Of a stretch of 24,867 nt of DNA, positions 1,782 through 14,414 are shown piece after piece. The notes under the pieces are model-generated. The model made no database searches, was not told the DNA's origin, and saw only the letters and a program-made list of their open reading frames with translations. A program made the translations under genes and the position numbers. This stretch comes from a virus. Numbering within the stretch: the stretch's first letter is position 1; each line of letters begins with the position of its first letter. The stretch is from positions 1-24,867 of IMG/VR virus record IMGVR_UViG_3300012022_000004; one strand, given 5' to 3'.

Positions 1782-1789
1782 TATAAATA
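1782..1789 (+). promoter_or_regulatory. T4-type late promoter for gp48-gp53 operon
   Basis: TATAAATA is the exact T4 late promoter consensus (recognised by gp55-directed polymerase in T4). With the usual spacing, transcription would start near 1795, about 25 bases before the gp48 ATG. Confidence 0.85.
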
Positions 1790-2971: not shown

Positions 2972-3496
2972 ATGCGTCAGTACTTTAAGAATCATCCACT
3001 GATCACGTACAACGGACAGCAGATGCGCAATCTGCTCAGCTCCGCACAGATCACCAAGGAAGTCCTCGCCAGCACCACCAACTTCCTCCCATACCAAATC
3101 CAGGAAGGCGACACCATCACGTCCGTCGCCTTCAACTACTACGGATCAGTGGACTATGCCTGGCTCGTCCTGTTCAGCAACGATGCAACCGACATCTACA
3201 GCTTCTGGCCAAAGACCGAAGAACAGATCCAGGCATTCATCGTCAAAGAGTATGGATCAATGGATGCAGGGTACAAGTACATCCATCACTACTACCACGT
3301 CACTGATCCGACGTATCCCCCGGTGACTCCAACCACGTTTGTGTTCATGAGTGAAGCTGAGAAAGCTCAGTTCTTCCCCATGTTCCTGTATGACTACCTC
3401 ATCCGTGAGAACGAGAAGAAGCGCCATATCAACCTGATTGATAAGGTGTATGCTGCTCGTATTGCGCTTGAACTTGAGAAGAAATTGGCATCATGA
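2972..3496 (+). CDS. 53: gp53-like baseplate wedge subunit
   Basis: A 174-residue protein (T4 gp53 is 196). Residues about 41-58 form a LysM-like segment ('YQIQEGDTITSVAFNYYG'), followed by 'YAWLVLFSND' and 'DIYSFWP', the family hallmark of gp53 proteins, which clamp neighbouring wedges together around the hub. 'FFPMFLYDYLIRENEKKRHINLID' near the C-terminus also matches the family. The gene has a usable ribosome site (AAGGA 11 bases before the ATG), sits 21 bases after gp48, and its TGA overlaps the start of the next gene (ATGA at 3493). Confidence 0.88.
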   Translation: MRQYFKNHPLITYNGQQMRNLLSSAQITKEVLASTTNFLPYQIQEGDTITSVAFNYYGSVDYAWLVLFSNDATDIYSFWPKTEEQIQAFIVKEYGSMDAGYKYIHHYYHVTDPTYPPVTPTTFVFMSEAEKAQFFPMFLYDYLIRENEKKRHINLIDKVYAARIALELEKKLAS

Positions 3497-4083
3497 ATTA
3501 CGTGAGGATTTACGACGAAATTTGCACTAGTGCAGAAAAGGTCCAAAAACGGAGTGAGTGTTCGCAGAGAGGTGTCTGCCCTCGTGAAGCCGCTGGGAAG
3601 TGGTGTGGGTCGTGTCTACACGTCCACCTAATCATCCCCGCTGGTATCTGGGGATCCACGGGCGCTGATCCCGCAAAGAACACGATCTATCTCACTGCAG
3701 CGCAGCAAGTCATCGCATATGCCCTGCTCCGCAAGATCTATCCGTACTCCAAGCACATTGCTGACACCTATCGTGCACTGAAGCGTGCCCGTGGACGCAA
3801 GAAGCGCAAGATCCCATATCGTCGTAAGCCTCATAGTGCAGCTACTCGTGCGAAGATGTCAGCCTCACACAAGGGCAAGACCTTTAGTGCTGAGAGTCGT
3901 AAGCGTATGAGTGAAGCAAAGCGTGGACGTGCACTGAGTGAAGCGCATGTGCGTGCTCGTAGTGAATCGCGTAAGCGCAACAAGCGTGGCTTTAGCCCTG
4001 AGACCATCGAGAAGATGCGATTGGCAGCCAAGAACCGTAAGATGAAACCCAAAGAAAGCAACTGGAGTGTCAAGAAGAAATGA
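3493..4083 (+). CDS. Degenerate HNH homing-endonuclease-like protein with NUMOD3 repeats
   Basis: A 196-residue, very basic protein. The N-terminus 'MNYVRIYDEI' and the stretch 'LIIPAGIWGS', then 'KNTIYLTAAQQVIAYALLRKIYP', align by eye with phage HNH homing endonucleases of the 'HHIIP...NLV.LTAREHFIAH' type. However, the second His of the HH pair is Leu46, and both His of the last motif are replaced (Gln72, Tyr76); only His45 and Asn63 remain. Residues about 114-180 contain several NUMOD3-type DNA-binding repeats ('SAATRAKMSASHKGKTF', 'SAESRKRMSEAKRGRAL', and a third ending 'GFSPETIEKMRLAA'). It is inserted between gp53 and the capsid-targeted genes with ATGA overlaps at both ends. AGT and CGT codons are commoner than in its neighbours, suggesting separate origin. 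Catalysis is probably lost; DNA binding may remain. Confidence 0.7.
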   Translation: MNYVRIYDEICTSAEKVQKRSECSQRGVCPREAAGKWCGSCLHVHLIIPAGIWGSTGADPAKNTIYLTAAQQVIAYALLRKIYPYSKHIADTYRALKRARGRKKRKIPYRRKPHSAATRAKMSASHKGKTFSAESRKRMSEAKRGRALSEAHVRARSESRKRNKRGFSPETIEKMRLAAKNRKMKPKESNWSVKKK

Positions 4084-4108
4084 AGACGTATCGAGAGTTC
4101 GTGGCTGA
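4080..4108 (+). repeat. 29-bp exact direct repeat, copy 1 (encodes capsid-targeting leader)
   Basis: The first 29 bases of the gene at 4080 recur exactly at 4315-4343. Identity stops right after the codons for the leader peptide, while the remaining coding sequences are unrelated at base level. Confidence 0.95.
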
Positions 4109-4313
4109 GGCTGCGACAAAGGAACCGTCGCCGTATGCAAGTCATGAAGAGCATCATGCCTATCACGAGAAGATGTTCAAGAAGTACGACAAGCACAAGA
4201 ACGTGTCATCTGCCAGTGAGCAAGCACAACGTGCACGTCTCGCTGCTAACCACAAGAAGATGATGGACTATCATGCCGGCAAGACTGGTCCAGCCGTGGC
4301 GAAGGGAGACTGA
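4080..4313 (+). CDS. Small capsid-targeted His/Lys-rich internal head protein candidate (copy A)
   Basis: A 77-residue protein starting MKTYREFVAEA, nearly identical to the capsid-targeting sequence MKTYQEFIAEA of T4 internal proteins IPI and IPIII, which is removed by prohead protease gp21 after the Glu. The expected cut here is VAE/A after residue 10. The mature part is short, helical-looking and rich in His, Lys and Ala ('HEEHHAYHEKMFKKYDKHKN'). The start overlaps the stop of the HNH-like gene (ATGA). The first 29 bases are identical to the start of the next gene. Inference: packed in the head and perhaps injected with the DNA. The mature part is not recognised. Confidence 0.78.
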   Translation: MKTYREFVAEAATKEPSPYASHEEHHAYHEKMFKKYDKHKNVSSASEQAQRARLAANHKKMMDYHAGKTGPAVAKGD

Positions 4314-4314
4314 C

Positions 4315-4343
4315 ATGAAGACGTATCGAGAGTTCGTGGCTGA
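4315..4343 (+). repeat. 29-bp exact direct repeat, copy 2
   Basis: Second copy of the leader-coding repeat at 4080-4108, at the start of the second small capsid-targeted gene. Confidence 0.95.
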
Positions 4344-4512
4344 AGCCAATGACGCGCACAAGCATCTACTGGCTTCAGCTGAGCATGAAGAAGGCAGTCG
4401 CAAGTACCACGAGCATATGGCTGCGTATCACGGTGAGAAGGCGAAGGTCGCTATTCGCAAAGACTATCACCTTGAGCAGCAGAAGGCTCATGAAGCGGCG
4501 GCGAAGAAGTGA
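4315..4512 (+). CDS. Small capsid-targeted His/Lys-rich internal head protein candidate (copy B)
   Basis: A 65-residue protein with the same MKTYREFVAEA leader as its upstream neighbour and a predicted cut VAE/A after residue 10. The mature peptide ('NDAHKHLLASAEHEEG', 'KYHEHMAAYHGEKAK', ending 'KAHEAAAKK') is an Ala/His/Lys helix with His at roughly regular spacing. The ATG at 4315 is chosen because the targeting leader begins there and GGGAG lies 7 bases upstream; an upstream ATG at 4273 would add an unrelated extension. The gene is 1 base after the stop of copy A and is followed by a large hairpin at 4527-4566 that probably ends the late transcript. Confidence 0.78.
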   Translation: MKTYREFVAEANDAHKHLLASAEHEEGSRKYHEHMAAYHGEKAKVAIRKDYHLEQQKAHEAAAKK

Positions 4513-4526
4513 GTTGTGTGTGAGTC

Positions 4527-4566
4527 ATTGGGCACCCCCTGGGTCTACACTCAGCGGGTGCCCAAT
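4527..4566 (+). terminator. Long two-part hairpin, probable transcription end (ATTGGG class)
   Basis: ATTGGGCACCC pairs with GGGTGCCCAAT (11 bp). After a one-base mismatch on each side, an inner stem CTGGGT/ACTCAG closes a 4-base loop. No strong T-run follows (CACTTT), so it may act as an RNA processing or stability element rather than a simple intrinsic terminator. It resembles the hairpins at 12059-12095 and 14381-14414. Confidence 0.65.
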
Positions 4567-4585
4567 CACTTTCGGAGTTGCTGCT

Positions 4586-4636
4586 ATGTTCTGGTTCTTC
4601 ATCGGCGTCCTCGTCGGCTACATTCTGTTCGGCTGA
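4586..4636 (+). CDS. 16-residue single-span membrane peptide candidate
   Basis: ATG at 4586 opens a 16-codon frame, MFWFFIGVLVGYILFG, almost entirely one hydrophobic helix. GGAG lies 8 bases upstream (CGGAGTTGCTGCT). It heads a run of three tiny hydrophobic frames that follow each other with 1-base gaps or overlaps, which argues for translation. At this size chance cannot be excluded. Role unknown; possibilities include membrane stress or lysis-associated peptides. Confidence 0.4.
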   Translation: MFWFFIGVLVGYILFG

Positions 4637-4637
4637 C

Positions 4638-4724
4638 ATGACCTTCTGGCTCGTCGTCGGACTGTTCGTGCTCTGCGGAGCCGGGCTGGTCATCCTCACG
4701 CGCAACTCAGGGATGGACCCCTGA
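4638..4724 (+). CDS. 28-residue single-span membrane peptide candidate
   Basis: The frame MTFWLVVGLFVLCGAGLVIL followed by a short polar tail (TRNSGMDP) begins one base after the previous tiny gene and ends in a TGATG overlap with the next. One transmembrane helix with an N-out or N-in arrangement is all that can be predicted. Coupled spacing is the main support. Confidence 0.5.
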   Translation: MTFWLVVGLFVLCGAGLVILTRNSGMDP

Positions 4725-4801
4725 TGCTGCTCGCCCTATTCTTGCTGTTCTACATCGGCTTCCTGGTGTACCTACTCACGGGAGGCAGCGATGACCGTTG
4801 A
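4724..4801 (+). CDS. 25-residue single-span membrane peptide candidate
   Basis: The frame MLLALFLLFYIGFLVYLLTG with a charged tail (GSDDR) starts within the stop of the previous tiny gene (TGATG). Its end overlaps the next gene's start at 4791. It is hydrophobic throughout its first 19 residues. Its layout resembles the 28-residue frame at 15475-15561, which also ends in a hydrophobic helix, a 'TG' turn and an Asp-rich tail. Confidence 0.5.
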   Translation: MLLALFLLFYIGFLVYLLTGGSDDR

Positions 4802-5000
4802 AGTGATCCTCGAGACACGTCGTGTGTTCGTCATGGGACCGAAGATGCTGCGGAAGTGGCTGTTCGACTACGCTGAGAAGGGTTGGTACCCGGAAGGCTA
4901 CTCACCCGACACCGTCGACGTCTGGTACTACTGGAACTGGGAAGCCTACACTCACGGTGGCGGCTGGCTCAAAGTGTACAGGAAGACGGCGACGTGCTAA
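4791..5000 (+). CDS. Small hypothetical protein, Trp/Tyr-rich
   Basis: A 69-residue protein with an excellent ribosome site (GGGAGGCAGCG before the ATG). It contains 'LRKWLFDYAEKGWYPEGYSPDTVDVW' and several Trp and Tyr residues, suggesting a small soluble beta/alpha domain. It overlaps the preceding membrane peptide by 11 bases and the next gene's GTG by 7. Not recognised. Confidence 0.65.
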   Translation: MTVEVILETRRVFVMGPKMLRKWLFDYAEKGWYPEGYSPDTVDVWYYWNWEAYTHGGGWLKVYRKTATC

Positions 5001-5158
5001 GGCGACGCTATCGGTTCGTCCGTGACATCCTTGGCTGCGGAGTCATCACCTCAGCCTTCATCGCGCTCCTCAATGAAGCGAGCGATCTCCCACCACACAA
5101 GGTCGGCTTCATGTTCTACGTCTGGGACATGACCGACGCCACTGACAGGAAACAATGA
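4994..5158 (+). CDS. Small hypothetical protein, GTG start
   Basis: A 54-residue frame starting at GTG (4994), chosen because AGGAAG lies 8 bases upstream and the start overlaps the previous stop, the usual coupling here. The product begins with a basic stretch (MLRRRYRFVRD) followed by a moderately hydrophobic helix ('ILGCGVITSAFIALLNEA') and ends 'YVWDMTDATDRKQ'. A longer upstream extension in this frame only overlaps the preceding gene and is not preferred. Unknown function. Confidence 0.55.
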   Translation: MLRRRYRFVRDILGCGVITSAFIALLNEASDLPPHKVGFMFYVWDMTDATDRKQ

Positions 5159-5367
5159 CACATATGAGCCTTGAGAAGATTGAACGCGCCGTCGCCCTGG
5201 GGCTGGTAGGTAGCGAGGTGGAGTTCCTGAAGATGGAGCCTGCCTTGCGCGCCGCTATCCTGTCCGCCGTTGACGAAGTCGCAGCCGGTACGCTCACCAT
5301 CGCGCCTGCTCCGACTGAAGAGCAGTGGCACGTGATCCGTGACGCGGACGGCAATGTGGTCGGCTGA
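5155..5367 (+). CDS. Small hypothetical protein
   Basis: A 70-residue protein whose ATG overlaps the previous TGA (ATGA), with AGGA 6 bases upstream. It is acidic and helical ('LEKIERAVALGLVGSEVEFLKM'), ending with a strand-like 'EEQWHVIRDADGNVVG'. It closes the gene run begun at 4586. Not recognised. Confidence 0.65.
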   Translation: MTHMSLEKIERAVALGLVGSEVEFLKMEPALRAAILSAVDEVAAGTLTIAPAPTEEQWHVIRDADGNVVG

Positions 5368-5495
5368 CCGCTGATCATGGTGACTGTTAAAACGGATTGA
5401 GCCGGAGCAGTTGTCACGCTAGCTCCGGTTCGGCGGGTGGTGCTCTGCAGCTGCATTGTCCCACTCGACCCGTCATCCACCAAGAGACACCCAGG

Positions 5496-5523
5496 AAGCC
5501 TCGGTTAGCAGCCGGGGCTTTTT
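5496..5523 (+). terminator. Rho-independent terminator
   Basis: AAGCCTCGG pairs with CCGGGGCTT (9 bp, one G-T) around a 7-base loop and is followed directly by TTT. It ends the run of small genes before the next promoter. Confidence 0.8.
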
Positions 5524-5577
5524 CACACCCAACCAGCCAGGTTAGCTCGCCGTTCGTTAAGATTTCGTTAAAGTCGA

Positions 5578-5624
5578 AAAAAGTTTGTTGCACTCTCCCC
5601 TTTCTGGTTGGAATCGGTTATACT
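5578..5624 (+). promoter_or_regulatory. Probable early promoter of the 5664 gene (repeat unit 1)
   Basis: Contains AAAAAAGTTTGTTG, then CTCTCCCCTTT, and a -10-like TATACT at 5619-5624 followed by GTGCC. The same layout recurs at 6319-6367. The best -35-like match (TTGCAC) is 25 bases from the -10 in both copies, so normal sigma70 spacing is not met. Confidence 0.65.
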
Positions 5625-5663
5625 GTGCCTAACCCAACCGCAACCCAAGAAAGGAACCAAGCC

Positions 5664-6017
5664 ATGCGCGCTACCCTCGCCGAAATCCGTATCGCCTACA
5701 TCGCCACCTTCAACCAGCGCATGCCGGGTGACCTGACCTTCGTGGCGGCTGGCCAGGAAGTCTTCAACAAGCTAGGCTCGGACGCCACCAAGCGTCTCAT
5801 CAGCCGCATCCGCATGATGTTCCAGCACCAGCCGGAGCTGTCCGTTGAAGAGATGGTCGCCCTGGCCAAGGACTGGGAAGTGATGAAGAGCTTCGACGGC
5901 TACATGATCATCACCGGCACTGGCGCGGTCGTGGCTCATGACGAAACCCTCAAGGGCGCGCTGGACGAGGCTCTCGAGTTCGCCCGTGACGTCGCCGCCA
6001 AGAAGCAGGTGAACTGA
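5664..6017 (+). CDS. Hypothetical phage protein, first gene of an early-type array
   Basis: A 117-residue protein started at ATG 5664 behind AAAGGA and the promoter at 5578-5624; the same frame is open further upstream, but that part lies in the promoter and terminator and is not coding. It is mostly helical, with 'SVEEMVALAKDWEVMKSFDGYMII' and a C-terminal Lys-rich helix. Three bases separate it from the next gene. Not recognised. Confidence 0.75.
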   Translation: MRATLAEIRIAYIATFNQRMPGDLTFVAAGQEVFNKLGSDATKRLISRIRMMFQHQPELSVEEMVALAKDWEVMKSFDGYMIITGTGAVVAHDETLKGALDEALEFARDVAAKKQVN

Positions 6018-6020
6018 GCC

Positions 6021-6299
6021 ATGAGCCACTCCACTCGCAAGCCCAAGAGCACCGTGCCGAGCATGTTCGTGGTCCTGGCAGGCTACTACGCTCTCACCGG
6101 ACAACACGCCACTACCAAGCAGGGGTTCGCCGAGCTGCACCAGTACAATAAGGACGTGATGGGCGATGAGCGTCTCAGCAGCCTCTACGCCCGTGCCCGC
6201 GCTGTGCAGCTGCAGTGGGGTGAGATGTCCTACTCCGAGGTGGGAGAGTGCATCCGAATTGAAGGCTACACCTACGGGTGTGAACGTAAGGGGTTGTAA
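6021..6299 (+). CDS. Hypothetical phage protein
   Basis: A 92-residue protein 3 bases after the previous stop. The basic N-terminus (MSHSTRKPKS) is followed by helices; 'LYARARAVQLQWGEMSYSEV' is the most regular. It is followed by a gap of about 100 bases holding the second copy of the early-type promoter. Unknown function. Confidence 0.7.
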   Translation: MSHSTRKPKSTVPSMFVVLAGYYALTGQHATTKQGFAELHQYNKDVMGDERLSSLYARARAVQLQWGEMSYSEVGECIRIEGYTYGCERKGL

Positions 6300-6318
6300 G
6301 CCGGTACGGAGAAGTCTT

Positions 6319-6367
6319 GAAAAAAGTTTCTTGACTTCTCCCCTTTTCTTGCTGGATGGACTATACT
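6319..6367 (+). promoter_or_regulatory. Probable early promoter of the 6406 gene (repeat unit 2)
   Basis: AAAAAAGTTTCTTGACTTCT, then CCCC and TATACT (6362-6367) followed by GTACC. This closely matches the unit at 5578-5624, including a 25-base gap between TTGACT (6331-6336) and TATACT. Confidence 0.7.
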
Positions 6368-6405
6368 GTACCTATCAGCTCGCCCACCCACTCAGGACCG
6401 CCCGC

Positions 6406-6768
6406 ATGAACGCTACCGCCCGCATCGCCAAGAACAACAACACCCCGCTGGTGTTCAAGAACCATGTGCCGGTCAGTGAGATGATCGAGACGCTGCGTGA
6501 CATCCAGCAGCTACTGGAGCGTGGTGCCGACGGCTTCCCGGAGCAGCAGTTCCGCAACTTCTGCCTGGCGCAGGAGTGGAACCTGTGCGTCGACTCGAGT
6601 CTGTCGCGCTGGAACAACCAGATGCGCATCGTCTTCATCGTCACCATCAACGGCTGGATGATGAAGGGCACTGTCGCCATTCCGCTGTCCGATGAGAAGG
6701 CGATTGTCGACGCCCGCGCCAAGCTCATCCACGACTGCTGCCAGTGGCTCATCGAGATCCTGGGCTGA
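6406..6768 (+). CDS. Hypothetical phage protein
   Basis: A 120-residue protein from ATG 6406, placed about 39 bases after the promoter -10 box; an upstream extension of the frame would run through the promoter. The pattern is helices ('VSEMIETLRDIQQLLERG'), then a strand-rich middle ('MRIVFIVTINGWMMKGTVAIPL') and a C-terminal helix 'AKLIHDCCQWLIEIL'. Not recognised. It begins a run of genes through 9989 without a recognisable internal terminator. Confidence 0.72.
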   Translation: MNATARIAKNNNTPLVFKNHVPVSEMIETLRDIQQLLERGADGFPEQQFRNFCLAQEWNLCVDSSLSRWNNQMRIVFIVTINGWMMKGTVAIPLSDEKAIVDARAKLIHDCCQWLIEILG

Positions 6769-6786
6769 GACGAAGGAGAGACGACC

Positions 6787-6960
6787 ATGAGCCACGACGT
6801 CAACAAGACCTTCCGCTACAACGGCAAGACCGTCCACTCTCACTACGACGCATCGCGTAGCTGGGTCCAGAGCGAACTCGCCTGGGACATGCTCGATGAG
6901 ATGGAAGTCGGTGAGGAAGTGACCGACGAACAGGGCGACGTCTGGACCCGCGAAAGCTAA
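6787..6960 (+). CDS. Small hypothetical acidic protein
   Basis: A 57-residue protein with a strong ribosome site (GAAGGAGAGACGACC before the ATG at 6787), too short for many gene finders but well placed between its neighbours (18 and 19 bases away). It starts MSHDVNKTFRYNGKTVHSHY and ends in an acidic tail (Glu/Asp-rich from residue 34). Unknown. Confidence 0.65.
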   Translation: MSHDVNKTFRYNGKTVHSHYDASRSWVQSELAWDMLDEMEVGEEVTDEQGDVWTRES

Positions 6961-6979
6961 CCGACAGGACGACACGACC

Positions 6980-7270
6980 ATGGCCAACAAGCGACTCACT
7001 CTCAAGGCGGTCAACAAGGCGATCGCCGAAGTGTCGAATCTCGAGATGCACTCCGGGCAGGGATACTTCTACTTCACCGGGCACGGCGTCGAGAACCTGC
7101 CGCAGCATCAGGCGAACATCTACGTGTACCAGCTGAACGACCTCAGCCTGGAACAGTACGTCGCGTTCGCCAAAGGCGCTCAGCAGGCGATCGACGCGCA
7201 CTTCGCCTGGGAAGCTCAGTTCGACCGCGACGAAGGTGACACCTACTCCTCCACGATCAAGGAAGCGTAA
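6980..7270 (+). CDS. Hypothetical phage protein
   Basis: A 96-residue protein with AGGACGACACGACC before the ATG. The pattern is alpha, beta hairpin ('GQGYFYFTGHGVENL'), beta ('QANIYVYQLNDL'), alpha ('EQYVAFAKGAQQAIDAHF'). It resembles many small phage alpha/beta proteins that come in paralogous arrays, but I cannot name a family. Four bases separate it from the next ATG. Confidence 0.72.
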   Translation: MANKRLTLKAVNKAIAEVSNLEMHSGQGYFYFTGHGVENLPQHQANIYVYQLNDLSLEQYVAFAKGAQQAIDAHFAWEAQFDRDEGDTYSSTIKEA

Positions 7271-7274
7271 GCCG

Positions 7275-7487
7275 ATGTACAAAGTCAACGACCTGGTCAA
7301 AGCCGCCCGCAAGCACAAGCTGTCGCTGCAGGTTCAGGGCGATAGCGCGGTGATCTACGGCGGTCACCCCGGTCGCATCACTCACAGCATGGCCAGCGAA
7401 GGGTTCAGCTTCGCCGGTCATGAAGTCGACATCCACAGCCTGACCGGGCAGAAGTGTGTCGGCATCATCTACCCGATCAAGGACTAA
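7275..7487 (+). CDS. Small hypothetical protein
   Basis: A 70-residue basic protein starting MYKVNDLVKAARKHKLSLQV. ATG 7275 is chosen over an in-frame start further upstream because it follows the previous stop by 4 bases. The N-terminal helix and later strands ('SAVIYGGHPGRIT', 'CVGIIYPIKD') look like a compact domain. Function unknown. Confidence 0.68.
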   Translation: MYKVNDLVKAARKHKLSLQVQGDSAVIYGGHPGRITHSMASEGFSFAGHEVDIHSLTGQKCVGIIYPIKD

Positions 7488-7493
7488 CCCGCC

Positions 7494-7718
7494 ATGACGC
7501 CCGAAGCCCTCAAGCGCCTGTCTGACTATCTCGACGCCATGGAAGCGCAGCGACTGCGCGACGAAGCGTTGTTCCGTGAGATCGACAGCAAGCTGAAGGA
7601 ACTACAGGACTTCCAGGAAACGGTTCACTGCATCGCCGTTGTCCTCGGTGTAGTTGTAGCCGCCTTTGCCGTCGGCGCCATCCTCGACGCTATGATGCGT
7701 CCCCTCGTTGTGAGCTAA
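7494..7718 (+). CDS. Small membrane-anchored coiled-coil protein
   Basis: A 74-residue protein. Residues about 5-44 form a charged amphipathic helix ('LKRLSDYLDAMEAQRLRDE', 'LFREIDSKLKELQDF'). Residues about 47-66 are one membrane span ('CIAVVLGVVVAAFAVGAI'). A tail of 8 residues follows. The layout suggests a tail-anchored inner-membrane protein with a cytoplasmic helix. Six bases separate it from each neighbour. Confidence 0.7.
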   Translation: MTPEALKRLSDYLDAMEAQRLRDEALFREIDSKLKELQDFQETVHCIAVVLGVVVAAFAVGAILDAMMRPLVVS

Positions 7719-7724
7719 CCCACT

Positions 7725-8009
7725 ATGGACCGTCAGCACTTTCGTGACATCGAAGCCCTGCTGCGTATCTCCCAGCACGGCACCCAGGCTGAGCAGCTGG
7801 AAGCGTTTCACCGGCTGGTCGAAGCCCTTTCCTGGCTGCGCCGGGTTGACGTCACGTTCCATGAAGCCGGCTGCGACTGCTGCTCCGGCGACTATGAGCG
7901 TTCGGAAGTCCTCTTCGGCGAGTACGTCGTCGCCGACCGTATCACCGAAGTCCTGGCACGGGCGGTCAAGCGTCCCATCCAGCCGGGCGAACTGAGCCTG
8001 AAGCCGTGA
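7725..8009 (+). CDS. Hypothetical phage protein with Cys cluster
   Basis: A 94-residue acidic helical protein with a mid-protein 'FHEAGCDCCSGDYE' cluster: three Cys within four residues plus a nearby His, which could bind metal. Otherwise unrecognised. It is in the same run as its neighbours, 2 bases before the next ATG. Confidence 0.68.
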   Translation: MDRQHFRDIEALLRISQHGTQAEQLEAFHRLVEALSWLRRVDVTFHEAGCDCCSGDYERSEVLFGEYVVADRITEVLARAVKRPIQPGELSLKP

Positions 8010-8011
8010 CG

Positions 8012-8140
8012 ATGGCCACCTCTGAAGCCCAGAAGCGTGCCTGGGCTGATCGTCTCACCAAGCCGGTGAGCAAGCACGCCAAAGCCCGCGCTCAGCGCGG
8101 TATCGCCAAGACCCTCAAGAAGAAGACCTTCCGCCGATGA
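8012..8140 (+). CDS. Small very basic protein
   Basis: A 42-residue protein from ATG 8012 to TGA 8138-8140. Lys and Arg are abundant, especially at the C-terminus ('GIAKTLKKKTFRR'). It overlaps the next gene by ATGA. Small basic proteins of this type in early phage regions often bind nucleic acid or host polymerase; here that is only inference. Confidence 0.6.
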   Translation: MATSEAQKRAWADRLTKPVSKHAKARAQRGIAKTLKKKTFRR

Positions 8141-8514
8141 ACACTCATCTCATCCGCATCAAGAGCAACAAGCCGCTGACGCACAAGCAGCGTTCCCGCC
8201 TGTACGAAGGGCTGAAGCACATGCTCAACGGTGAAGGCAGCCAGTTCTGGGAAGAGGACGACGTCGAAGTCGTGCCGACGCTCGTGGTTGTTGAGCCGAT
8301 GGGCGTCGAAGGCAAGCTGAAGCTGTACACCGTCAGCTTCAAGTACACCATGCCTTACGGCGCGGTCAGGCAGCCAATGCCGACCGAACAGCGCGTGTTG
8401 TACTGCGGTCTCAACGAACGTGAGGCGCAGCGCATCAGGAACGAACACAACCGGGGCAAGAGCTGGGATCACGAGCAGTATGCCCGGCTTGAGGAAAGGG
8501 AGCTTGACGCATGA
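8137..8514 (+). CDS. Hypothetical phage protein
   Basis: A 125-residue protein coupled by ATGA overlaps to both neighbours. An N-terminal 'IRIKSNKPLTHKQRSRLYEGLKHML' segment is followed by strands ('VEVVPTLVVVEPM', 'LKLYTVSFKY') and a charged C-terminal helix. Function not recognised. Confidence 0.72.
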   Translation: MNTHLIRIKSNKPLTHKQRSRLYEGLKHMLNGEGSQFWEEDDVEVVPTLVVVEPMGVEGKLKLYTVSFKYTMPYGAVRQPMPTEQRVLYCGLNEREAQRIRNEHNRGKSWDHEQYARLEERELDA

Positions 8515-8756
8515 GCAACAAGAAGAACATCGTGGTCGACGGCACCGCCGAGTTCCAGCACATGACCCTGGGCGACGTTCGCAAGTTGCTCAAGGAACTC
8601 GAGCAGTACGGCGACGAAACCGAACTGCGTATCGCAGCCATCGCTGACAACCCGGACGCGTGGATGGAAGGTGTTGCGGCGGTCAGCATGGACGTGGAAT
8701 ACGTCGAACACGGGGACGAAGGTCCCGAACTCTGGATCACCATCGAAGGGGAATGA
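8511..8756 (+). CDS. Hypothetical acidic phage protein
   Basis: An 81-residue acidic protein. 'MTLGDVRKLLKELEQYGDET' followed by 'LRIAAIADNP' and a C-terminal 'GPELWITIEGE' is a pattern seen in many small phage and bacterial alpha/beta proteins of unknown role. ATGA coupling to the previous gene; 4 bases to the next. Confidence 0.72.
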   Translation: MSNKKNIVVDGTAEFQHMTLGDVRKLLKELEQYGDETELRIAAIADNPDAWMEGVAAVSMDVEYVEHGDEGPELWITIEGE

Positions 8757-8760
8757 AATC

Positions 8761-9180
8761 ATGAAGGACGAAGCATTCGAAGCGTGGACGAAGGAACCGG
8801 CACAGGCTGGCTACTTCAGCCTCATCCGCGACGAGTCCAGCGGCAACTACCAGGGCGCCACGCTCCAAGCCTACTACGGTTGGCGCGGTGCGATGGAACT
8901 GATGAAGCGTCAGGAAGCCTGCGAAGCGGCACAGCCGGACCCGATCTTGCAGGAGATCTTCCATGCGCAGGACCGCCTGGCATGGATCATCGAAAACAAG
9001 GCGCTGCGCGTTCAGGGCACGGACGAACGCGGTTGGTCGATCATGGACTGCAGCGACGGTCTGACCTTCTTGGTGCGTCATGCCAAGACCTACGAAGAAG
9101 CCATCGACGAAGGCATGAAGAAGCGCCCGTTGAAGGAAGTCGTCGGCGCGTTGCCGCGTTGCCGTGTACCGTTGATCTGA
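8761..9180 (+). CDS. Hypothetical phage protein
   Basis: A 139-residue protein from ATG 8761, four bases after the previous stop and preceded by AAGGGGAATGAAATC. Helical for the most part ('WRGAMELMKRQEACEAAQ', 'LQEIFHAQDRLAWIIENKAL'). Not recognised. Several antisense and frame-shifted open frames overlap it but lack ribosome sites. Confidence 0.72.
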   Translation: MKDEAFEAWTKEPAQAGYFSLIRDESSGNYQGATLQAYYGWRGAMELMKRQEACEAAQPDPILQEIFHAQDRLAWIIENKALRVQGTDERGWSIMDCSDGLTFLVRHAKTYEEAIDEGMKKRPLKEVVGALPRCRVPLI

Positions 9181-9193
9181 GGCGACGTCGATC

Positions 9194-9409
9194 ATGCCGC
9201 GCAAGTACAAAGTCGGTCTGGTGGGTCACATGCCCAACCAGAAGAACATCGGTGAGACGAATGTCATGTTCGTCAACGGTGTCTATCGCTGCGTGATGCC
9301 CGATGGCTACCGCCCGCCGCCCGGCTACAACTGGGATCGCGGCGTCAGGAGCGTCGGGCATACTCGCATGTACACCGCTACCAAAAAGAAGGATGAAGAG
9401 ACGCCATGA
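9194..9409 (+). CDS. Small basic hypothetical protein
   Basis: A 71-residue basic protein, Lys-rich at both ends (MPRKYKVG ... ATKKKDEETP) with a Pro/Tyr/Gly-rich centre ('MPDGYRPPPGYNWD'). Its stop overlaps the next ATG (ATGA at 9406). Unknown function. Confidence 0.65.
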   Translation: MPRKYKVGLVGHMPNQKNIGETNVMFVNGVYRCVMPDGYRPPPGYNWDRGVRSVGHTRMYTATKKKDEETP

Positions 9410-9813
9410 GCCAACATACCGTTCCGTGTGCCGCTTGCCCCTGGCGCAAGACTTCCTTGCCCGGCTGGCTGGGTGACTCGACGCCGCTGCAGTTCATTCA
9501 GCAGGCGGAAGCTGAAATCAAGATGCCCTGCCACTGCGCGGTCGACTACAACGAAGAGAACTGGCAAGACCAGATCGAAGACGCGCCGCGTTGTGCTGGT
9601 CACGCTGCCTACCTGCGCAACCGCTGCAAGCTGCCGAATGACCCGAAGCTGCGCGCGTTCGCTGCCGAAGTTGGCCAGCGTAGCGACGTGTTCGCGCGCC
9701 CGGATCACTTCGTCGAGCATCATGGTGGCGATGTCAGCCGGGTTACCATGGTTCTGATCGGCATCGACGACGCCAGCGGCGAGAAGGTCAAGAAGCGGGA
9801 GATTGCACGATGA
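9406..9813 (+). CDS. Cys-rich phage protein, DUF6283-like
   Basis: A 135-residue protein with 'VPCAACPWRK' near the N-terminus (Cys8, Cys11), 'MPCHCAV' (Cys42, His43, Cys44) and a later 'RCAGHAAYLRNRCK' (Cys63, His66, Cys74). The CxxCPWR start and the later CHC and CxGH motifs match, from memory, a phage/actinobacterial family annotated DUF6283. The spaced Cys/His suggest metal binding. Role unknown. Coupled to both neighbours by ATGA overlaps. Confidence 0.68.
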   Translation: MSQHTVPCAACPWRKTSLPGWLGDSTPLQFIQQAEAEIKMPCHCAVDYNEENWQDQIEDAPRCAGHAAYLRNRCKLPNDPKLRAFAAEVGQRSDVFARPDHFVEHHGGDVSRVTMVLIGIDDASGEKVKKREIAR

Positions 9814-9989
9814 AGTGGTTCGTAGAAAGCCTGATCGAAGTGCACGGCGTGGTCGCGGTCGTGTTCTACATCCTCATGATCATCGCCACCATGGGTGCGA
9901 TTGCTACCGTACAGCTCGGCGGCATGTTGCTTGCGCTGGTGTTTGGCATGATCGGCATGATCGCAAGCACTGTCCACATGATGCGATAG
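9810..9989 (+). CDS. Small two-span membrane protein
   Basis: A 59-residue protein with two hydrophobic helices (about 13-30 and 34-52: 'VVAVVFYILMIIATMGAIA', 'GGMLLALVFGMIGMIAS') joined by a short TVQL turn. The start overlaps the previous stop (ATGA). Its TAG stop is two bases before the late promoter at 9991. Last gene of the early-type array. Confidence 0.65.
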   Translation: MKWFVESLIEVHGVVAVVFYILMIIATMGAIATVQLGGMLLALVFGMIGMIASTVHMMR

Positions 9990-9990
9990 C

Positions 9991-9998
9991 TCTAAATA
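9991..9998 (+). promoter_or_regulatory. T4-type late promoter (TCTAAATA)
   Basis: TCTAAATA followed by CC, between the stop of the membrane gene and the large His-rich gene at 10033. Expected start near 10004. A short CCTGG...CCAGG inverted repeat (9999-10021) spans the start site. Confidence 0.75.
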
Positions 9999-10032
9999 CC
10001 TGGTCACACTCAAACCCCAGGATCCCGCCGCC

Positions 10033-11265
10033 ATGGCATGGAAGGAATACAGCGGTGATGAACACGGCTACCGCGACCTGATCAAGAAGCATCACCCGGA
10101 TGCCAAGGTCGGTCGCGGCAACGCTGATGGCATCACCCAGCACACCGTTGGTCACCAGGACCACGTCGTCGGTCACTACGACTCGCACCACAAGACCGGC
10201 AAGGTCAAGGTGTACGAAGAGGAGCTAGAGGCTGACTTCGGCGTCTTCATCAAGGAAGACGCTCACCAGACCGCCGCTGCACATCACGCAGCCGCTGCCA
10301 CTCACAAGGCAGAAGCCGACTCGCACGAGGAAGGCTCGCTTGCGCAGCACAAGGCGCTGGCACATCACCACAAGTCACTCATGATGGCTCATCGCGCTGA
10401 AGCAGCGTCGAAGCGTCTCATCAAGGATCGCACCGCTTCGGTACAGAAGGCTGACGGTCACTTCAAGCAAGCCATGCACCACTACACCATCGCGTCCGGC
10501 GTTGGAACCGTCAAGGAAGGAAGCATCCTCATGAAGTCATTCACCGCAATCCTCAGCGAAGCCCGCCAAGCCAAGAGCGGCGAGATCGCATCCCATGCCG
10601 AGGGCATGAAGAAGCACGGCGAGGCGATGCTGCAGCACAAGCACGACGCGCACGTTCATCAGAATGCTGCCCAGGATACGGGCGACTCCGAAAGCACCCG
10701 TAAGGCAGAAGGCGCGCGCAATGCAAGCAACGCGTCGGAGTCGCAGTTCAAGTACCACGCATCGGAACTGAAGAAGATCAAGGAACCGGCTGCCGTCAAG
10801 GCTCACGCGGCTGCTCATGCGCACCTGGCGAGCAAGGCGAAGGAGCACGCGGCTTCTCTGACTGATCAGCACAAGAAGCAGGGTGGCACCACCACGACCC
10901 TGACCGACGGTGCTCGATGGATGCGCGAACGCGCAAGCAGCCATGCAAAGTCCGCATCTTCCAAGAGTCTGAAGGAAGAAGCCGTTCTCGACGAAGCGAA
11001 CAACGAGCACCGCGCGAAGCTGAAGGCGTACGAAGCCGCTGCTGCCAAGGCTGAAGAAGTCACCAAGGAAGCAAAGGAAGCCACCACATCCGGCGACCAC
11101 AGCAAGGCAGCTGCGCAGCACTCCCGTGCGGGCGGTTTCCACAAGGAAGCAGCAGACAAGGCAGCGGGCGTCGACCACTCGAAGCGCCTGTATCACATCC
11201 GCAAGGCGGGCGAACACAAGGTCTCCATGGACCATCACGATTCAGAACTGAAGAAGGCAAAGTAA
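10033..11265 (+). CDS. Large His/Ala/Lys-rich internal head protein candidate with a second in-frame capsid-targeting start
   Basis: A 410-residue protein rich in Ala, His and Lys. Residues 1-60 ('DEHGYRDLIKKHHPDAKVG', 'GKVKVYEEELEADF') look like a small folded domain. From about 78 come His-spaced helices ('AHHAAAATHKAEADSHEEG', 'LAHHHKSLMMAHRAEA'). At residue 167 (base 10531) MKSFTAILSEARQ appears, a capsid-targeting-like peptide, with AAGGAAGGAAG 7 bases before its ATG. The second part has further helices and 'EEAVLDEANNE', another possible gp21-type (LxE) cut. Thus two gene units share one frame: either a fusion, or two nested products. Late promoter at 9991; one base before the next gene. 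Likely role: packaged in the head; precise function unknown. Confidence 0.75.
   Translation: MAWKEYSGDEHGYRDLIKKHHPDAKVGRGNADGITQHTVGHQDHVVGHYDSHHKTGKVKVYEEELEADFGVFIKEDAHQTAAAHHAAAATHKAEADSHEEGSLAQHKALAHHHKSLMMAHRAEAASKRLIKDRTASVQKADGHFKQAMHHYTIASGVGTVKEGSILMKSFTAILSEARQAKSGEIASHAEGMKKHGEAMLQHKHDAHVHQNAAQDTGDSESTRKAEGARNASNASESQFKYHASELKKIKEPAAVKAHAAAHAHLASKAKEHAASLTDQHKKQGGTTTTLTDGARWMRERASSHAKSASSKSLKEEAVLDEANNEHRAKLKAYEAAAAKAEEVTKEAKEATTSGDHSKAAAQHSRAGGFHKEAADKAAGVDHSKRLYHIRKAGEHKVSMDHHDSELKKAK
10531..11265 (+). CDS. Nested in-frame product with capsid-targeting leader (alternative start)
   Basis: Starting at ATG 10531 gives 244 residues beginning MKSFTAILSEARQAKSG. The leader fits the T4-like targeting pattern (MK[ST][FY]...), and the predicted cut is LSE/A after residue 10, the same position as in the 65- and 77-residue proteins. 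The ribosome site AAGGAAGGAAG (10513-10523) is better than that of the upstream start at 10033, which has none obvious. I list it separately since both products may be made from one message. Confidence 0.55.
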   Translation: MKSFTAILSEARQAKSGEIASHAEGMKKHGEAMLQHKHDAHVHQNAAQDTGDSESTRKAEGARNASNASESQFKYHASELKKIKEPAAVKAHAAAHAHLASKAKEHAASLTDQHKKQGGTTTTLTDGARWMRERASSHAKSASSKSLKEEAVLDEANNEHRAKLKAYEAAAAKAEEVTKEAKEATTSGDHSKAAAQHSRAGGFHKEAADKAAGVDHSKRLYHIRKAGEHKVSMDHHDSELKKAK

Positions 11266-11266
11266 G

Positions 11267-12028
11267 ATGAAGAAGTTTTCTGAGTTCGTAGCAGAAGCGA
11301 AGGCAGTCAAGGACGCGGGAGACCATCACGCCGAGGCTGCAAAGATCGTGAAGAAGCACGACAAGCATGCCGAAGACGTCTACAAGTCTGGCGGCGAACA
11401 TCCAGATGGTCACAAGCTGCACCTCGCAGGCGTACACCACAGCAAGGTCGCCAAGCTGCATGCAGATCTAGAGAAGGCTGGCTTCAAGAAGCATGAAGGT
11501 TCACATGCTCCTGAGCATGGCGCTTCCTCCGGTGGCGGCGGTGATGGCAAGGTCTATCACAAGTTCACCAAGGGCAAGACGTCGGTGAACGTGAGCCACA
11601 AGCCGATTGTGGCAGGGTTCCACGACCATCACCAGCATCAGTTCGACCACCACTTCGTCGAAGTGCATTCCACTGTGAAGCATCCTCTGAGCGAGGAAGT
11701 GTTGGACGAAAGTATGAGCCGCGACGAGCACATGGCAAAGTCCGAGCATCACGAAGTGCAGGCTGAACATCACTTCATGAAGGCGCATCAGCACGCGTCG
11801 GCTATCGCTTCCGACCTACAGGCAGCCGGTCACAAGTCCGCTACCGCCGACAAGGTCGCGCACACCCACGACGAGTCCGCTCCGAAGTACCGCAAGCTGA
11901 GCGGCAAGGCGCAGGCTGCTGCCCAGGCTCACCCGCTGTATGACAAGGTCGTGCACCACAAGACCGAAGAGAAGAAGCACAACGCCCTCTTCAACGACCA
12001 CTTCCAGAAGGCGCGTAGCAAGAGCTAA
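11267..12028 (+). CDS. His-rich capsid-targeted internal head protein candidate
   Basis: A 253-residue protein starting MKKFSEFVAEAKAVKD, a third version of the T4 internal-protein leader with expected cut VAE/A after residue 10. About 38 residues are His (near 15%), many in clusters such as 'FHDHHQHQFDHHFVEVH'. 'KKHDKHAEDV' recalls 'KKYDKHKN' in the 77-residue protein at 4080. A Gly-rich linker (about 84-92) separates an N-terminal region from a beta-like part, and 'PLSEEVLDESMSRDEH' holds candidate LxE cuts before a C-terminal helical region. It starts one base after the previous stop. Family not recognised beyond the leader; location in the head is inferred from it. Confidence 0.8.
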   Translation: MKKFSEFVAEAKAVKDAGDHHAEAAKIVKKHDKHAEDVYKSGGEHPDGHKLHLAGVHHSKVAKLHADLEKAGFKKHEGSHAPEHGASSGGGGDGKVYHKFTKGKTSVNVSHKPIVAGFHDHHQHQFDHHFVEVHSTVKHPLSEEVLDESMSRDEHMAKSEHHEVQAEHHFMKAHQHASAIASDLQAAGHKSATADKVAHTHDESAPKYRKLSGKAQAAAQAHPLYDKVVHHKTEEKKHNALFNDHFQKARSKS

Positions 12029-12117
12029 ACGAGGATCCTAACCTCGTCGCGTCAAACATTGGGTACGGCAGTCCTAAACTGGGCTCCGTACCCAAACCAC
12101 ATTGGAACACCAACATT
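12029..12117. other. Non-coding spacer with two hairpins
   Basis: A 6-bp hairpin (ACGAGG/CCTCGT, about 12029-12047) is followed by the large hairpin listed at 12059-12095. No promoter with good -35 and -10 boxes is apparent before the next gene. Confidence 0.55.
12059..12095 (+). terminator. Two-part hairpin (ATTGGG class), probable transcript end
   Basis: TTGGGTACGG pairs with CCGTACCCAA (10 bp); inside, CAGT/ACTG closes a 5-base loop with a 4-base bulge. Same general design and same CATTGGG opening as the hairpin at 4527, and like it lacks a long T-run. Confidence 0.6.
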
Positions 12118-12582
12118 ATGAGCACCAACGTGATCAGCCTCAAGACCGTCCTCTGCGGTGAGCCGCAGGCAGCCTTCGACCTCGTCGGCGAGCGTCTGCT
12201 GCGACAGGGTGCCAGTTGCCGTGAGAACGGTTCGTGCGCCTACAGCGACGGCTTCGGACAGCACTGCGCGGTCGGTCTGATTCTGGACCAGACCGAACTC
12301 GACGTCGTCAAGGCGCGAGAACTGAATGGTGTCAGCGTCGGTACGCTGGCAGCCAATCTCGGGTACATCGAAAGCAACTGGACCGATGTCCCGCTGCTGC
12401 CCGAGCTGAACCTGAGCAACCTTCAGATGCTTCGCGATGTGCAGAACGTGCACGACAACCGCGAAGAATCGGATTCGGCGCAATGGCGTTCCGAGGTGTT
12501 CAATGCGATGCGGGCTGTCGCCAACGACAACCAGCTGAGCACCACCAAGCTCGAAGAGGTGTACAATGAACTGCGCGGCTAA
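12118..12582 (+). CDS. Phage-conserved 'CAVG' family protein, paralogue 1
   Basis: A 154-residue protein of a family I recognise from many large phages, with the pattern: LQ/AF helix, 'C.Y....G..CAVG.LI', then a mid region, 'L..LQ.VHD' and a C-terminal 'W...V..AM..VA...'. Here these are 'SCAYSDGFGQHCAVGLIL' (Cys40, Cys50), 'LQMLRDVQNVHDN' and 'WRSEVFNAMRAVAND'. No biochemical role is known to me. It is followed by its own paralogue with a 17-base overlap. Confidence 0.78.
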   Translation: MSTNVISLKTVLCGEPQAAFDLVGERLLRQGASCRENGSCAYSDGFGQHCAVGLILDQTELDVVKARELNGVSVGTLAANLGYIESNWTDVPLLPELNLSNLQMLRDVQNVHDNREESDSAQWRSEVFNAMRAVANDNQLSTTKLEEVYNELRG

Positions 12583-13073: not shown

Positions 13074-14369
13074 ATGGCAACTGTTCAGACTGACATCGTT
13101 CAGCACAACCCAGGACAACCAGATGCGTTTGGCTACTCGATTGCCTTTGTGAAGGCGACGGGTGGCCAGACGTATTCTGTCACACAGTACGTCGCAGAGA
13201 TTGACGTGTGGGAGTCACTGTTCGCAAAGGCGATGTGCTGCAAGCTGGGCGTCTTCGACGGCGGCGGCTTGATGGAAACGATCGCGCTTCAGCCGGGCGA
13301 CATCATCCGTGTCACCATCTACGCCGACGAAGAAGGCGACAAGCTGATCAAGGACTTCCTGATCAGCGAGATCACGGGTGGCAACCGTACCGACAACTCC
13401 GCCGCCAAGACGTACAACGTCAGTGGCATGAGCCGCCACGCCTACAACAACATGAAGGCGAACGTCTACCGTGGCTTCAGCAGCACCTACAGCGACATGC
13501 TGAAGAAGGTCTGCTCCGACTACCTGGGTCTGGACGACGTCGACATCGAGAGCACCGTGGGCAACACCACGATCGTCTCGCCGGGTAAGCCACCGTTCAA
13601 GGTCATCGGTCAGCTGATGACGCACGCCGTTAGCGGGCGCTGGGGTCCAGAGGACTCGTTCTTCTTCTTCTACGAAGATCGTGACAAGGTGCGTTTCAAG
13701 ACGCTCAAGTCCATCGTCACCGATGCCAAGGTTCACCCGTTCATCGTCAGTGTCGACAAGAACGTCGACGGTCCGACCGATCTCATCAAGATTCAGCACT
13801 ACAGCCAGCTGAAGGCAGGCTCGCAAACCGAACGCATCAACAGCGGTATGTTCGAGAACGAGATCGTCGAAGTGGATTTCCTGAGTCGTACGTTCGGCTC
13901 CAAGAAGTTCAGCTATGAGAAGGCTGGCGATCAGCTGCGCATGCTCGGTCAGGGCGACATCGTCGACAAGGCGAACAACGTCAAGGACTTCGTCAACGAA
14001 AGCGCCAGCACCATCCGTGGCTTGAGCAACCTCGTCAAGTGGCGTGTGGCAGACGAGTCGTTCGATCGCGAAGGCACGATGCGCGACAAGTATGGCACTA
14101 TGGTCGCACAGAAGGCGCTGTTCAATCAGCTGATCTACGCGGTACAGATCTTCGGCAACCCTGGCATCAAGGCTGGAGACATCGTCGACGTGACCAGCCC
14201 CGCCCTATCCATGCAGGGCGACGCGCCTTCGCTGGACAACATGTTCCAGGGTCGTTTCCTTGTGGGAGATGTCAGGCATCGTATCGTGAATGGCGAGCAG
14301 TACCTGACGGTGCTGAACCTGTTCAAGGATGGCTTCGAGACTGCAAACGTTCGCGAAGAAAGCAAGTAA
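13074..14369 (+). CDS. 27: gp27-like baseplate central hub protein
   Basis: A 431-residue protein (T4 gp27 is 391). The N-terminal tube-like domain shows 'VAEIDVWESLFAKAMCCKLGVFDGGG', 'ALQPGDIIRVTIYADE' and 'TYNVSGMSRHAYNN', then 'YSDMLKKVCSDYLGL'. The second half has 'GNPGIKAGDIVDVTSP' and a closing 'GRFLVGDVRHRIVNGEQYLTVLNLFKDGF', typical of hub proteins that require a final 'L...V.H.I..G.Y.T.L.L..D' strand. In T4, three gp27 with three gp5 form the needle base through which DNA passes. Its placement just ahead of the gp5-like gene supports the call. A gpD-like hub from another family is the alternative. Late promoter at 13038; AGAGG 10 bases before the ATG. Confidence 0.78.
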   Translation: MATVQTDIVQHNPGQPDAFGYSIAFVKATGGQTYSVTQYVAEIDVWESLFAKAMCCKLGVFDGGGLMETIALQPGDIIRVTIYADEEGDKLIKDFLISEITGGNRTDNSAAKTYNVSGMSRHAYNNMKANVYRGFSSTYSDMLKKVCSDYLGLDDVDIESTVGNTTIVSPGKPPFKVIGQLMTHAVSGRWGPEDSFFFFYEDRDKVRFKTLKSIVTDAKVHPFIVSVDKNVDGPTDLIKIQHYSQLKAGSQTERINSGMFENEIVEVDFLSRTFGSKKFSYEKAGDQLRMLGQGDIVDKANNVKDFVNESASTIRGLSNLVKWRVADESFDREGTMRDKYGTMVAQKALFNQLIYAVQIFGNPGIKAGDIVDVTSPALSMQGDAPSLDNMFQGRFLVGDVRHRIVNGEQYLTVLNLFKDGFETANVREESK

Positions 14370-14380
14370 GGCAAAACATT

Positions 14381-14414
14381 GGGGTCAGAGCCGTCATCCT
14401 ATGGCTCTGACCCC
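14381..14414 (+). terminator. Strong hairpin after gp27-like gene (ATTGGG class)
   Basis: GGGGTCAGAGCC pairs perfectly with GGCTCTGACCCC (12 bp) around a 10-base loop, followed by TTTCC. Opened by ACATTGGGG, like the hairpin at 12059. Confidence 0.78.

Follow-up and report, generated by a model that had tools for sequence, protein, structure and literature searches.

The virus record IMGVR_UViG_3300012022_000004, analysed here over its entire 24,867 bases (the window; guanine plus cytosine (GC) content 58%), encodes a set of histidine-rich proteins that begin with the capsid-targeting leader of phage T4 internal proteins. These are probably internal head proteins of a T4-superfamily phage resembling Stenotrophomonas phage DLP_6, the closest named relative, matured by the gp21 protease and carrying a histidine stripe that may serve in switchable contact with the packaged DNA. 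Packaging, cleavage and ejection are what we infer from the sequence; a role for histidine through conditional charge, or through binding of metal, is inferred with less confidence. The frames concerned are as follows (an arrow marks the putative cut).

4080..4313, plus strand: protein of 77 residues, leader MKTYREFVAE↓A, 9% histidine; weak PHROG matches to internal virion proteins (E 0.0065-0.042)
4315..4512, plus strand: protein of 65 residues, leader MKTYREFVAE↓A, 12% histidine; matches the internal head protein phrog_2667 in the leader only (E 0.0055)
10033..11265, plus strand: open reading frame (ORF) of 410 residues with 44 histidines; a leader lies inside the frame at 10531, and ILSE↓A and VLDE↓A are sites of gp21 type
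10531..11265, plus strand: internal in-frame ATG, MKSFTAILSE↓A, 244 residues, 9% histidine, Shine-Dalgarno-like site
11267..12028, plus strand: protein of 253 residues, leader MKKFSEFVAE↓A, 15% histidine, second gp21-type site VLDE↓S

Targeting leaders and late expression

The initial annotation had reported leaders at 4080, 4315, 10531 and 11267, each with a Glu10-Ala11 junction. All four are present, junction included, and those that open the genes at 4080, 4315 and 11267 reproduce the T4 capsid-targeting leader almost exactly. Residues 4 and 7 of the T4 leader have been shown to matter for targeting and residues 8 and 10 for cleavage, with gp21 cutting after L/I-X-E (PMC9026906). The window leaders have an aromatic residue 4, hydrophobic residues 7 and 8, and Glu10, the features tested for in T4-type capsid-targeting sequence (CTS) proteins, and end in LSE in one protein and VAE in three.

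Leaders were scored on ATG starts with the strict pattern MK.[FY].EF[LIMV].EA, which fits 3 of the 364 starts in the window (4 of 364 for a looser pattern). No match was found among 7,838 ATG starts from 80 T4-like contigs that were selected through gene 4, blind to the leader, among 2,164 starts in DLP_6, or in 200 first-order Markov windows, thus excluding chance for the window leaders. An origin as accidental frames or leaders in GC-rich DNA is accordingly so improbable as to be negligible. The 58% GC and the antisense ORFs overlapping 10033-11265 would fit it, but it is contradicted by the leader statistics and by the 82% identity to a DLP_6 protein described below, as well as by late promoter and ribosome-binding sites and a codon-position GC pattern in the long frames that resembles that of structural genes.

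T4 late promoters take the form [TC][ACT]TAAATA. This motif occurs six times in the window, against 1.4 expected after shuffling, and five of the six copies lie on the plus strand, 31-42 nucleotides ahead of the genes for the tail tube cap (1820), the 410-residue ORF (10033), a baseplate protein (13074), a gp5-like protein (15591) and a gp25-like protein (22914). The signals around the leader genes are listed here.

1782..1789, plus strand: T4-type late promoter motif TATAAATA, 38 nucleotides ahead of the tail tube cap gene
4523..4570, plus strand: strong terminator-like stem-loop immediately downstream of the 4315 gene, lacking a long run of T (z -4.0)
9991..9998, plus strand: T4-type late promoter motif TCTAAATA, 42 nucleotides ahead of the 10033 start
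12059..12095, plus strand: strong stem-loop downstream of the 11267 gene, where the late operon probably ends (z -5.7 for 12020-12120)

Downstream of the tube cap and gp53 genes, and on their strand, lie the 4080 and 4315 genes; the motif at 1782 is the probable promoter of an operon ending with these two, membership being judged by gene order and strand. With a late motif at a baseplate-like distance ahead of it, 10033-12028 looks like a late virion operon. Sigma-70 promoters were at background level and were rejected.

Both DLP_6 and each of the eight related contigs longer than 130 kilobases (kb) that were searched encode the gp21 protease (PF03420), and gp23 of DLP_6 carries LLGE↓A, which fits the gp21 motif. 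Leader, late expression and gp21 in the relatives together make packaged internal head proteins the likeliest identity. The earlier proposal of packaged, protease-matured proteins therefore gains the leader, the late-promoter position and gp21 in DLP_6 and the eight contigs as support, the steps of packaging, cleavage and injection themselves being presumed. A genome devoid of any gp21-type protease, named in the initial annotation as grounds for refutation, is not what the relatives show.

Histidine-rich bodies and their processing

The mature parts contain 9-15% histidine, are rich in alanine and lysine and lack cysteine; the 38 histidines previously counted among the 253 residues of the 11267 protein agree exactly with our count. 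The regular spacing noted earlier also held up, with 30 histidine pairs at i+7 in the pooled window proteins against 11.3 ± 2.9 expected from block shuffling (p<0.0005). Pairs at distance 3 or 4 showed no excess in the same comparison, indicating that histidine repeats along one face of the predicted helices. Predicted structures of the mature products are mostly helical.

Such a composition, cysteine-free and with heptad histidine, would also suit packaged metal-binding helical bundles, in which histidine stripes hold Zn, Ni or Fe between helices and either buffer metal or lock the proteins until ejection. The 4080 protein has a hemerythrin-like match (E 0.026, far below the cut-off). However, the i+3/i+4 pairs that are the usual spacing of single-helix sites are not in excess, and no metal-protein profile passed its cut-off for the window proteins, the hemerythrin profile TIGR02481 reaching 14.6 bits against 51.75. 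We consider the bundles quite unlikely. As the role of the histidines, metal bridging is the main alternative to switchable charge.

The four proteins had been described as a family, which does not hold in the sense of homologues: the 10531 and 11267 proteins align in the leader only (E 0.19). The bodies being unalignable, the set is defined only by leader and composition. Four paralogous genes are ruled out, as the bodies do not align and 10531 is internal. The 11267 protein has no homologues in the phages or viral contigs searched. It had further been stated that no described family has this composition; this is borne out by the profile libraries searched, whereas histidine-richness also marks unrelated leader proteins in several other T4-superfamily lineages. 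Without histidine, the net charge is near neutral, at +1 to +8 per chain, and thus differs from the net-basic charge tested for in T4-type CTS proteins. Since diverse cargos carry the same leader, basic charge is usual for such proteins and not strictly defining.

The start at 10531 is real and has its own Shine-Dalgarno-like site (AAGGAAGGAAG, 7 nucleotides ahead of the ATG), but it does not open a separate ORF, as it lies in frame inside the 10033-11265 ORF. It may be either a second point at which translation starts or a site of internal cleavage. The 166 residues that open the 10033 ORF, overlooked in the initial annotation, contain 13% histidine, and residues 2-69 share 82% identity, over 68 residues, with a domain in the interior of DLP_6 AAY80_069. 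Homologues of this 67-residue domain were absent from the viral contig and genome contig sets, DLP_6 being the only match, and no other named relative of AAY80_069 was found. In AAY80_069 the shared domain comes after TIEE↓G, and L/I/V-X-E-A/G/S sites number 5 against a composition expectation of 1.4 (p 0.008). DLP_6 AAY80_068 has a basic segment after DLTE↓A; a basic protein of phage C48C1, similar to this segment by eye, has its own leader-like start. Polyprotein-like processing is plausible from these sequences. AAY80_069 (L003:6234-7535) is annotated as exodeoxyribonuclease VII large subunit, but both its composition and its sites of gp21 type point rather to a head polyprotein.

Extensive cutting is also what would befall scaffold-core proteins of the gp67/gp68/gp22 type, whose leader would join them to the core before gp21 chops them up and they are lost, making histidine irrelevant to the mature virion. 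T4 core proteins are indeed cut to fragments (PMC9026906), VLDE↓A and VLDE↓S lie inside the window proteins, and the DLP_6 core-cluster gene AAY80_014 has the related start MKTW...IHE↓A and encodes ~6% histidine. Yet the window genes are located away from the head cluster, their leaders are exactly of internal-protein length and their sites do not exceed chance in number, and we regard a scaffold role as distinctly unlikely.

As internal head proteins, the window products would be expressed late, alongside the genes for tail and baseplate. The ten-residue leader would dock each on the prohead core, and gp21 would cleave after Glu10, while the 410-residue ORF could give several mature pieces via internal gp21-type cuts or translation restart at 10531. 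The mature proteins would remain in the head beside the DNA and probably be ejected with it. With a histidine every seven residues, the stripe would most likely touch the packaged DNA weakly and in a switchable manner: the proteins would be near neutral with histidine unprotonated and strongly cationic with histidine protonated near dense DNA, at ~+40 to +50 per chain for the two long ones.

Several observations weigh against this reading. No gp21 gene was found in the window, a 24.9-kb fragment, and valine at residue 8 places three window leaders outside the T4 L/I-X-E consensus (valine is also found here in 14 of 120 leaders elsewhere, among the matches listed). Processing sites in the window are not above chance, with 3 in the 10033 ORF against 1.2 expected (p 0.11) and 1 in the 11267 body against 0.6. 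The structure models, predicted without relatives, are of low confidence. Taken over the entire leader scan, leader proteins are not richer in histidine than their neighbours (mean within-locus rank 0.44, among the matches listed). Furthermore, replacement of lysine or arginine by histidine was rejected, as there was neither an anticorrelation with net charge across at least 59 sequence clusters nor lysine replacement at the level of sites. With two predictions of a lysine substitute failing, the claim for the role of histidine is kept weak. The roles proposed in the initial annotation are all hypothetical, and simple DNA counter-charge is unsupported.

Leader cargos in other T4-superfamily phages

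In T4-like contigs the leader was found on at least 120 distinct ORFs whose cargos are unrelated, with a median histidine content of 1.2% and I, L or V at residue 8 in 114 of 120 (among the matches listed); together with the four window proteins, leader ORFs form the at least 59 clusters mentioned above. Among the matches listed, 35 contigs encode at least two leader proteins each, and differences between these contigs account for 76% of the histidine variance (permutation p 0.0006; homologous contigs uncollapsed), hence histidine-rich cargo is not randomly spread. In some lineages unrelated cargos are jointly histidine-rich, up to 15%, with homologues in other phages at 1-2%.

This is seen for DUF6267 (PF19782) proteins and their cytidylyltransferase-like neighbours, both assignments being confirmed by Pfam. 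In one large histidine-rich group, mean histidine is 12.1% in DUF6267, 7.2% in the cytidylyltransferase-like neighbours, 6.2% in other leader proteins and 3.1% in other ORFs, compared with 1.6, 1.9, 1.7 and 1.9%, respectively, in the comparison group. Histidine in DUF6267 correlates with that in the cytidylyltransferase-like neighbour (rho 0.77, 131 loci), and lysine in DUF6267 is unchanged (12.7 vs 12.0%). This set was fetched with histidine-containing patterns, which selects for histidine in DUF6267; its members are related, so that p-values overstate independence, and background histidine differs somewhat too. The DUF6267 relatives closest to DLP_6 had almost no histidine variation and gave no significant correlation (rho 0.17, p 0.16), and a second scan with histidine-rich members was therefore needed. 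Of the 80 N-termini that the first scan gave for DUF6267, only 4 fit the strict leader pattern. The DUF6267 and cytidylyltransferase-like genes are the top two histidine-rich ORFs in both G001 and G012 (near-complete-sized genomes, ~190 ORFs) and rank first and fifth in G009. PHROG 455 covers DUF6267 and the cytidylyltransferase-like part with one profile. DUF6267 proteins (L003:2316-3551, L098:4724-5947, L247:2812-4224) have leader-like starts and a K-x-D-G-[AS]-P motif, which we take to resemble motif I of nucleotidyltransferases/ligases.

The data hint at selection for histidine by the interior of the head itself. As a tentative extension, on balance doubtful, all leader-targeted packaged proteins of some lineages, whatever their fold, may have been driven to 7-15% histidine with lysine kept and cysteine nearly excluded, a compartment-wide adaptation in which pH- or metal-switchable DNA contact would aid ejection.

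Proteins injected to inhibit host defence in the manner of T4 IPI, with the leader as the sole conserved part and histidine incidental, offer a different explanation of bodies that are unrelated to one another and almost without relatives. Adjacent window genes have leader DNA in common and differ in their bodies, and the T4 internal proteins are themselves a diverse anti-restriction set in which the leader alone is conserved (PMC3012670). Nevertheless, a composition of repeated heptads does not resemble the compact fold of IPI and the joint histidine-richness of unrelated cargos would be left unexplained, and we judge this explanation unlikely.

At the DNA level, the 4080 leader is 94% identical to the 4315 leader over 35 nucleotides, the identity ending at the cleavage point, and record G006 likewise has two neighbouring leader genes with near-identical leader DNA, which suggests that the leader moves as a cassette. 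An unrelated protein of Synechococcus phage DSL-LC02 carries exact MKTYREFVAEAN. In an AT-rich contig (L246:3305-4169), three tandem small genes with 7-10% histidine and leader-like starts repeat the 4080/4315 layout, the first two with near-identical leader DNA. A homing endonuclease directly precedes the window pair and may have aided movement of leader genes.

3493..4083, plus strand: NUMOD3 homing endonuclease gene (phrog_655 1e-12, PF07460 7e-7), its stop overlapping the 4080 start codon

A DNA pattern of leader plus two adjacent histidines returned only another cargo, the LHHGT proteins. These small LHHGT/LHHGS proteins (L005-L015, e.g. L006:7774-8238) carry the leader MKTFQEFIAEA or MKSYKEFITEA; by eye, their motif recalls ADP-ribosyltransferases or RNA 2'-phosphotransferases, and a working leader would make them packaged enzymes. 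DLP_6 AAY80_239 (L001:17987-19000), which adjoins gp2 and is annotated as hypothetical, matches an ADP-ribosyltransferase exoenzyme (PF03496, 1.2e-17). It is the most histidine-rich ORF of DLP_6 at 11%, lacks a recognisable leader and, belonging to the enzyme class of T4 Alt, is a possible Alt analogue. Leaders at L207:6199 and L201:3997 precede proteins that resemble, by eye, RlpA/expansin-type double-psi barrels, possibly packaged cell-wall proteins.

Known packaged proteins and genomic setting

The window proteins share with T4 IPI, IPII, IPIII and Alt the ten-residue leader, its key residues and the Glu10-Ala11 junction, and both sets are small late proteins with unrelated bodies. In contrast to the basic T4 proteins, those of the window are near neutral without histidine and have 9-15% histidine in heptads, with packaging and cleavage presumed. 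T4 internal proteins are reported to reach DNA phosphates through lysine only (PMC3012670). DLP_6 AAY80_069 resembles the 10033 ORF in the shared domain, in its 7.4% histidine and in several gp21-type sites, but is 433 residues long, has the domain internally with the rest unalignable, and lacks a full window-type leader. The DUF6267 and cytidylyltransferase-like proteins have leader-like starts in some members and are 7-15% histidine and cysteine-free in some lineages; unlike the window proteins they have unrelated folds, are not found in the window and are histidine-poor in most lineages sampled. Polyvalent packaged proteins combine several domains per polypeptide and are thought to be delivered at infection (PMC9503650). 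The window proteins resemble them in having several domains in one polypeptide, and differ in that no enzymatic domain was detected and a T4-type leader takes the place of a portal/MuF fusion.

A literature search, mostly without subscription journals, returned no description of histidine-rich internal phage proteins or of DUF6267 in phages. Leader and internal proteins are already known; the histidine-heptad cargo and its occurrence across folds appear new. T4 internal proteins are known from few phages, and the leader offers a sequence handle for probable head cargo in unassigned metagenomic phages. It also suggests a rule for how the cargo of some lineages is composed, histidine-rich and cysteine-poor, with heptad histidine in the window proteins. 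If this is correct, the role of internal proteins in DNA packing and ejection, long open, becomes testable by pH and metal titration, and there would be a simple route to proteins delivered by phages at entry.

By gene content, the window derives from a DLP_6-like T4-superfamily phage. A tail tube gene fragment, with gp2 and gp4 on the minus strand, comes first; the tail tube cap, gp53, the homing endonuclease, a long run of small genes and the baseplate gene at 13074 follow, with the gp5-like (15591) and gp25-like (22914) genes further downstream. DLP_6 has the same order of gp2, gp4, tube cap, small genes and baseplate, and provides the best protein match of the 13074 product (36% over 98%); at the DNA level, the search gave no match to any named phage. 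After the baseplate gene, a near-perfect 14-base-pair stem and T-rich run (14381-14414) form a strong intrinsic terminator.

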